A stretch of DNA of 35,994 bases from Candidatus Bathyarchaeota archaeon (GTDB lineage Archaea; Thermoproteota; Bathyarchaeia; Bathyarchaeales; Bathycorpusculaceae), in NCBI GenBank assembly GCA_026014685.1, contig JAOZHW010000003.1, positions 1 through 35,994 of the forward strand. The letters run 5' to 3'. The notes beneath the pieces are model-generated. The model saw only the letters and a program-made list of their open reading frames with translations. It was not told the origin of the DNA and searched no databases. A program made the position numbers and the translations under genes. Each line of letters starts with the position of its first letter. Position 1 is the stretch's first letter. Positions 33,390 to 34,482 of the stretch are shown in pieces.

Positions 33390-33776
33390 GTGACCCAAAA
33401 AATCGTAATACCCGTAGAAGACCAAAACGGATTAGACTCAAAAGTAGCCTCCCACTTCGGCAAAGCACCCTACTTCGCATCCATCGACCTAAACGGACGC
33501 GGCCAAATCATCGAAACAAAAATCGACCCAAACACAGGAGAACACCTCGGCGGCACAGGCCACCCACACGAAAACCTGCTCGCACTAAAACCCACCGTAA
33601 TCATAGCCTGCGCTATGGGACCAGGCGGGCTGCACAGTTTTCAGAATGCGGGAATAATGGTGCTAAAAGCACACGGCAGCACCGTCAGCGAGGTAATTGC
33701 TAACTTTAAAGAGGGCAAACTGACGCCATTAACTGGCGGTTGCCCACATGCACACGAACACCACCACACCCACTAA
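33390..33776 (+). CDS. NifX/NifB-C-like dinitrogenase-cofactor family protein with His-rich tail
   Basis: This 128-residue protein matches the NifX/NafY/NifB C-terminal family (PF02579), small cofactor-binding carriers common in anaerobes without nitrogenase. Typical blocks are KIVIPVEDQNGLDSKVASHF and GKAPYFASIDL at the N-terminus, and IIACAMGPGGLHSFQNAGI in the middle. The last 11 residues CPHAHEHHHTH are very rich in histidine and could bind nickel or zinc. The start is GTG at 33390 with AAAGGCGAT upstream. It diverges from the Lrp-type regulator across paired palindromes. Probably a metal or cofactor carrier. Confidence 0.83.
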   Translation: MTQKIVIPVEDQNGLDSKVASHFGKAPYFASIDLNGRGQIIETKIDPNTGEHLGGTGHPHENLLALKPTVIIACAMGPGGLHSFQNAGIMVLKAHGSTVSEVIANFKEGKLTPLTGGCPHAHEHHHTH

Positions 33777-33790
33777 GCGGCAAATTATGG

Positions 33791-33891
33791 GCTGAATGGT
33801 CTCTGGCGAGCAAATTAACACCAAAAGGGCAGCAGCTGCCCGCCTATACTTGAAGTAATCCCCAAAATTCAAGCACTCGCCAGAACCCAGC
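33791..33891 (+). ncRNA. Candidate structured RNA element between NifX-like and flavodoxin genes
   Basis: The outer stem is GCTG/CAGC (33791-33794 with 33888-33891), GGT/ACC (33798-33800 with 33885-33887) and TCTGGCGAG/CTCGCCAGA (33802-33810 with 33876-33884), a 16-pair stem with small bulges on the left only. Inside are two hairpins: GGGCAGC/GCTGCCC (33827-33841) and CTTGAA/TTCAAG (33849-33854 with 33868-33873). Most of the gap between the genes is used by this fold. It ends 54 bases before the flavodoxin GTG and may act as a 5' leader element, a processed small RNA, or the remnant of a small inverted-repeat element. Confidence 0.45.
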
Positions 33892-33945
33892 ACACCTCAA
33901 CCCAAAAAAGCAACTCAATGAATTAGATTGTGGGAGTTGTTTAGC

Positions 33946-34482
33946 GTGAAAACTGCACTTATCGTTTATTGGTCTAAAACTGGCAATACAGAAAAAGTCG
34001 CCAAAGCCATCGAAGTGGGTCTAACCGAGGCAGGTTTGCAGGTTACCGTAAAGAAGCCTGAAGAAGCCGAGGCGTTAGACTTCTTTGATTATGACTTGGT
34101 CTGTGTCGGCTGTCCCTCGTATTCTTGGCATCCCCCCGAACCTGTCACTAACTTTTTGAAGAAAAAATTTGCCGAGTACCGCCAAAACGGTAAAATCAAG
34201 CCCTCAGCCCCAAAAGTGCCAGGCAAAAACGCGCTGATCTTTGTAACTTACTCTGGGCCTCACACTGGAATCGCTGAGGCAACCCCTGTGGGCAAGGACA
34301 TAGGGCAGTATTTCGAGCATTTGGGTTTCACTGTACTTGATGAATGGTACGTTTTAAGTGAATTCCACGGTTCCCTTGAACATAGCACGCAGGGTCGATT
34401 GGGCGACGTGAGGGGTATGCCTACAGCGGAACAGTTGCAGGTTATCAAAGACGATTCAAGGCGTATTGCATGCCTCATCTAG
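33946..34482 (+). CDS. Flavodoxin family protein
   Basis: From the GTG at 33946 the protein has 178 residues. It has the flavodoxin fold with the FMN phosphate loop SKTGNT near the N-terminus (TALIVYWSKTGNTEKVAKAI). Further flavin-site segments are CVGCPSYSWHPPEPV and IFVTYSGPHTG. Flavodoxins carry one or two electrons and replace ferredoxin in some anaerobes; a flavodoxin-like NAD(P)H quinone reductase cannot be excluded. GGGAG nine bases upstream supports this start over the TTG at 33928. It follows the structured element at 33791-33891. It likely serves the surrounding C1/metal genes, by context only. Confidence 0.83.
   Translation: MKTALIVYWSKTGNTEKVAKAIEVGLTEAGLQVTVKKPEEAEALDFFDYDLVCVGCPSYSWHPPEPVTNFLKKKFAEYRQNGKIKPSAPKVPGKNALIFVTYSGPHTGIAEATPVGKDIGQYFEHLGFTVLDEWYVLSEFHGSLEHSTQGRLGDVRGMPTAEQLQVIKDDSRRIACLI

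Follow-up and report, generated by a model that had tools for sequence, protein, structure and literature searches.

A structured RNA family of Bathyarchaeia with a divergent member between NifX-like and flavodoxin genes, and the family's possible antisense role at the starts of surface-protein mRNAs

The element between the NifX-like and flavodoxin genes

Near the end of the window, by which we mean the whole stretch of 35,994 nucleotides that was analysed, a NifX-like gene (33390..33776, plus strand; PF02579 Nitro_FeMo-Co, E = 3e-15) is followed by a flavodoxin gene (33928..34482, plus strand; PF00258, E = 8e-11), for which a GTG start at 33946 is likelier than the start at 33928. The element discussed here lies directly downstream of the NifX-like gene, 12 nt after its stop codon and about 50 nt before the flavodoxin gene. 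It occupies 33789..33896 on the plus strand, with a match to our covariance model (R1) and the fold z-score as evidence for the element; its natural ends come from comparison with relatives and are slightly wider than the 33791-33891 of the initial annotation.

All pairings described in that annotation, an outer stem and two hairpins, are present in the sequence. The bulged 5' arm of the basal stem (GGGCTG-AAT-GGT-C-TCTGGCGAG, 33789..33810, plus strand) is conserved in 108 distinct copies, and the 3' arm (CTCGCCAGA-ACC-CAGC-ACA-CC, 33876..33896, plus strand) is likewise conserved and covarying. GCTG at 33791-33794 pairs with CAGC at 33888-33891, GGT at 33798-33800 with ACC at 33885-33887, and TCTGGCGAG at 33802-33810 with CTCGCCAGA at 33876-33884. 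The statement that all bulges are on the left is correct for AAT and C, but a 3-nt ACA bulge appears on the right as well once the two outermost G-C pairs are included. The stem encloses hairpin P3 (GGGCAG-CAG-CTGCCC, 33827..33841, plus strand), found in both the MFE and the centroid fold and kept in shortened form in the related genome G018, and hairpin P4 with its C-rich loop (CTTGAA-GTAATCCCCAAAA-TTCAAG, 33849..33873, plus strand), found in the MFE fold and also kept in G018.

The fold is genuine and clearly exceeds chance expectation, as had been supposed from its symmetry. The minimum free energy of 33789-33896 is -37.2 kcal/mol (z = -4.1, p = 0.002, 1000 dinucleotide shuffles), and the outer arms by themselves pair better than 99.9% of shuffles (p = 0.001). 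The z-score is -2.9 when some 20 nt of flanking sequence are included at either end.

When the genus was searched at the DNA level, an orthologous copy turned up in the same NifX-flavodoxin gap of G018, at 86% identity, along with arm fragments in other genomes, three related copies in G017 among them; some of these three lie before flavodoxin genes and one before a different gene. Two species thus share the NifX-flavodoxin placement of the window-type copy, and a third has related copies. The orthologous operons of G021, where the gap is short, and of L032 have no element between the two genes. In G008 and G007 (L241, L243) an OsmC-like gene, not the element, stands between the NifX-like and flavodoxin genes, at the place that corresponds to 33777-33945 of the window.

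A structured RNA family and its covariation

The initial annotation had proposed a covariance search in related genomes and a search for other copies in the same genome, and both kinds of search found further copies. Our covariance model, built from 49 copies, has matches in 44 of 257 genomes of Bathyarchaeia, the class in which named near relatives place the window's genome. Of these 44, 37 belong to the window's own family and 7 to one genus of a second family in the same order. The remaining 213 have no covariance match at E <= 0.01. The window's genome has 13 matches at E <= 1, of which 11, the window copy included, reach E <= 1.5e-6. Related Bathyarchaeia carry up to about 50 copies per genome, and copy numbers from the 257-genome search are to be read as "at least". 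Whole-element DNA searches return mostly arm fragments; pattern and covariance searches were required. In G060, the left-arm pattern with up to 2 mismatches gives 41 matches against 1 for the reversed-pattern control, and a slightly altered pattern with 3 mismatches gives 50 against 7.

Members are mostly 90-110 nt long and combine a bulged basal stem with an apical hairpin and a pyrimidine tract that is for the most part unpaired. Among the copies of relatives the arms are conserved (GGGCTGARTGGGCTCTGG ... CCAGAGCCYCAGCAAACC) and the interior is variable. They occur in same-orientation arrays with a typical spacing of 3-5 kb. The consensus of G000 and G018 is a three-way junction made of a 14-bp bulged basal stem and the hairpins P3 and P4. 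In the window copy the layout is the same but the hairpins differ: the basal stem and the junction are kept, and P4 with its C-rich loop occupies the place of the pyrimidine tract, which is present in most other copies and absent here. R1 scored the window copy at 43 bits (E = 1.5e-6 when three genomes, its own included, are searched), a score that is not independent, since this copy was among the sequences used to build the model. We class the window copy as a divergent member of this conserved family of structured RNAs.

Compensatory changes preserve the stem. A MAFFT alignment made without fitting to the structure shows two-sided changes at 6 of the 15 pairs (15 cells against 3.2 in shuffled alignments). 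Among 108 distinct model-aligned copies the count is 12 of the 15 (89 cells against 18.1, a level reached in 0 of 500 shuffles); this alignment is biased to the structure, its arms are nearly without gaps, and the signal collapses when the structure is slid along it. The initial annotation had named a missing stem or missing compensatory changes in close relatives as evidence that would speak against the fold, and the relatives checked gave no such evidence. On the sense strand, G-U cells exceed A-C cells (63 against 32, counts that are not independent), which mildly favours an RNA read from the sense strand. In some copies the pyrimidine tract seemed well suited to form a pseudoknot with an upstream purine-rich segment; this idea failed a partner-swap test (t = -1.2) and was rejected.

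Rfam 15, at its curated gathering threshold, matches neither the window nor the eight further loci searched, which hold other copies; at a relaxed threshold it gives only a chance-level match outside the element. In the literature on archaeal integrons, Bathyarchaeota riboswitches and Bathyarchaeia PQQ proteins or small RNAs we found nothing that describes the element. As judged by sequence comparison, this is a new structured RNA family without an Rfam match.

Position behind secreted PQQ genes and complementarity to their starts

In 95 of 108 copies the nearest upstream gene is on the same strand, mostly at a fixed short distance, and the downstream genes vary. A constant 5'-leader position before related genes, as would be typical of a riboswitch, is therefore not seen across the 108 copies. 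For main-type copies the stop codon lies 36-102 nt upstream, and for NifX-type copies 9-12 nt. The upstream proteins fall largely (86 of 92) into one homologous cluster; four others are NifX-like and two are singletons. The cluster consists of secreted proteins of roughly 820-1020 aa with a C-terminal hydrophobic segment and a basic tail, and those scanned have PQQ beta-propeller and weak Ig-like matches. The expansion of the PQQ proteins in Bathyarchaeia has been described, and they have been proposed to take part in lignin-related extracellular redox chemistry (PMC11697101); the terms "noncoding" and "intergenic" are absent from the text of that article.

Most copies have a run of at least five T between the stop codon and the element. 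The 17 element-less PQQ genes of G000 that we inspected have a T-rich tract after the stop codon too, hence the tract looks like a terminator and the element like an extra module beyond it. Archaeal U-tract terminators are cleaved by aCPSF1/FttA (PMC8716108, PMC7515710), and the PQQ genes likewise have a U-tract after the stop, with or without the element. Given that the element lies beyond this tract and is absent from many PQQ genes, it is not the terminator itself.

Some twelve copies lack an intact secreted-protein gene immediately upstream. Some of these orphans are preceded by AT-rich, TATA-like sequence and hence may be stand-alone RNA genes. The orphan copies L130, L168, L177 and L148:6356-6459 are located behind divergently transcribed regulator genes. 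In L142-L146, units of PQQ gene and element are interspersed with regulator genes of opposite orientation, one of which is of AsnC type by Pfam.

The pyrimidine tract, whose core is predicted to be 84% unpaired, resembles in its reverse complement a ribosome-binding site followed by a start codon (TTAAGGAGAAAAGAAAAATGAAAACC in G000), and the PQQ genes of G000 begin in much the same way. In G062 and G060, GGAGAGA is found both in the PQQ starts and in the complement of the tract, and in G140, which belongs to the other family, the shared sequences resemble GAAGG(TG)AAAAAATGAAAAAAC. Predicted duplexes are stronger with own-genome PQQ starts than with control starts in G000 (-23.3 against -17.0 kcal/mol) and in G140 (-21.8 against -15.2 kcal/mol), and the same is true of G062 starts with G062/G060 elements (-23.5 against -17.7 kcal/mol). 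Elements of the same genome group outpair those of the other two groups in 6 of 6 comparisons (p <= 0.001), and no pairing is seen with the opposite strand. The longest perfect complements are 20-22 nt at PQQ starts and at most 16 in controls. Start codons were chosen by rule in all of this, and a few are wrong.

It could be asked whether the Shine-Dalgarno (SD) sequence is sufficient to produce such a contrast. When control genes are matched for SD and AUG the contrast holds in G140 (p = 1e-4) and is not significant in G000 and G062, with 5 and 4 such controls respectively. Among all AAGGAGA-N4-8-ATG sites of G000, 8 PQQ starts scored -16.1 and 34 others -12.4 (p = 1.5e-4); PQQ sites were assigned from gene positions here, and true starts may be lacking at many of the 34. 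A genome scan with 23-mers returned ten sites, namely six elements, three PQQ starts and one ferredoxin-like gene.

The window copy behaves differently. It pairs in an ordinary way with the flavodoxin start (17 of 58 controls do better), its pairing with the NifX start does not exceed the average, and three short genome stretches linked to it by DNA search are in or at coding regions and include no convincing target. Complementarity to a trans-encoded ribosome-binding site and start, of the kind known for sRNA162 of Methanosarcina mazei, is thus found for PQQ-type copies in three genomes and not for the window copy.

Elements also pair less with their own upstream gene than with its sisters in three of four genomes tested, one of them marginal (permutation p with row and column effects removed: G062 0.012, G140 0.005, G000 0.056; combined p = 3e-4). 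There is no sparing of the own gene in G060 (p = 0.48), where some start codons were mis-picked. PQQ genes without a paired element are the stronger targets in G000 (-24.3 against -19.0) and in G062 (-25.2 against -20.7). This pattern suggests that each element may damp the paralogs of its host gene.

Possible mechanism and alternatives

In our opinion the family would, somewhat probably, consist of 3'-end-encoded antisense RNAs that repress the translation of paralogous surface-protein mRNAs in trans, with the window copy as a divergent, tract-less member. The RNA could arise by read-through followed by 3'-end cleavage, or be transcribed from a start of its own; as the U-tract precedes the element, either read-through or an own promoter would be needed. 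The pyrimidine tract would then pair with the Shine-Dalgarno/AUG region of paralogous PQQ mRNAs and repress their translation, and, with weaker pairing to the host gene, expression of one surface protein would damp its sisters. We are more doubtful about the further step, that a typical element silences paralog starts and spares its own gene to the extent of near mutually exclusive expression of the PQQ/beta-propeller proteins, which would amount to an RNA-based exclusion system in archaea.

Part of the evidence would also fit a cis-acting 3'-UTR structure of PQQ mRNAs, with a role in stability, protein binding or 3'-end processing, which was duplicated together with the gene family; the start complementarity would then be incidental, as ribosome-binding sites are rich in purines and the tract consists of pyrimidines. 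The single homologous cluster upstream, the fixed orientation and position, and the weaker contrast in the two genomes with few SD-matched controls agree with this explanation. We nevertheless regard it as unlikely, for the complementarity tracks genome-specific changes of the starts (GGAGAAAAG, GGAGAGA, GAAGGTG) and persists at constant SD, many PQQ genes of G000 have the T-rich tract without the element, and orphan and NifX-type copies occur. Considerably less probable, in our judgement, is a DNA element: an attC-like or MITE-like site, active in recombination or mobile, would mark the ends of genes and promote the shuffling of cassettes for surface proteins. Units of gene and element in same-orientation arrays, a palindrome that is bulged and imperfect and varies in its interior, the existence of orphans, and presence or absence at the NifX locus would suit such a site, and archaeal integron attC sites (PMC9668308) share with the element the bulged imperfect palindrome, the variable tip and the place behind genes in same-orientation arrays. 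Unlike attC, the element has an antisense tract against mRNA starts and lacks the RYYYAAC/GTTRRRY core boxes, which were not seen in the alignment (by inspection its ends are GGGCTG...CAGCAAACC). An integron integrase above the TIGR02249 cut-off was found in 0 of 14 genomes, with only general tyrosine recombinases below it, and an attC site was rejected on these grounds. Nor would a DNA site be expected to show sense-strand complementarity to mRNA starts. G-U cells outnumber A-C cells, and no viral contig with a copy was found.

The initial annotation had offered three suggestions: a small RNA, a leader of the flavodoxin mRNA and a small non-autonomous inverted repeat. The small RNA is the best supported of these, given the strong stem covariation of the family. 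As to the inverted repeat, further copies do exist and are dispersed, yet nearly all are on the sense strand, in one orientation and at a set spacing from the genes of a single family that precede them; a mobile inverted repeat is weakly supported. The flavodoxin leader fails as a general rule, given the varying downstream genes. For the window copy alone it may hold, as such copies precede flavodoxin genes in three genomes; a leader riboswitch is not supported. An intercistronic leader, processing or stability element that sets flavodoxin expression relative to NifX is possible for this copy, and we hold it only tentatively: the close spacing to both genes, the retention in G018 and the related copies of G017 speak for it, and the element-less operons of G021 and L032, the ordinary pairing with the flavodoxin start and the one G017 copy before a different gene speak against it.

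The proposed antisense repression is closest, by analogy, to Methanosarcina mazei sRNA162, in which an unstructured linker is reported to cover the ribosome-binding site of an mRNA encoded in trans (PMC3510493). In both, an unstructured segment of an archaeal RNA faces such a site, by prediction in the present family. The likeness drawn is one of mechanism: sRNA162 is single-copy and has other targets, whereas the present family is multicopy, stands behind the genes of the putatively targeted paralogs and has a conserved bulged basal stem. Small RNAs repress paralogous members among the variant surface proteins of Giardia (PMC3937270); this is a functional analogy only, as Giardia is a eukaryote and uses an Argonaute/microRNA pathway. 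PQQ proteins are among the most expanded families of these genomes. Our analysis adds a structured RNA family with a sequence-level pairing prediction from an abundant uncultured archaeal class and, if trans-repression is true, a multicopy RNA network that controls archaeal surface proteins.

Two minor observations concern what the tracts could pair with. A site on the minus strand of G000 (G000:C11:83023-83040, AAGGAGAAAAGAAGAATG) equals the best PQQ start in the strength of its pairing with G000/G018 elements. Elements of G140 (L179, L186, L188 and others) contain a sense-like AAAATGAAAAAT stretch that could pair internally with the antisense tract and so hide it.
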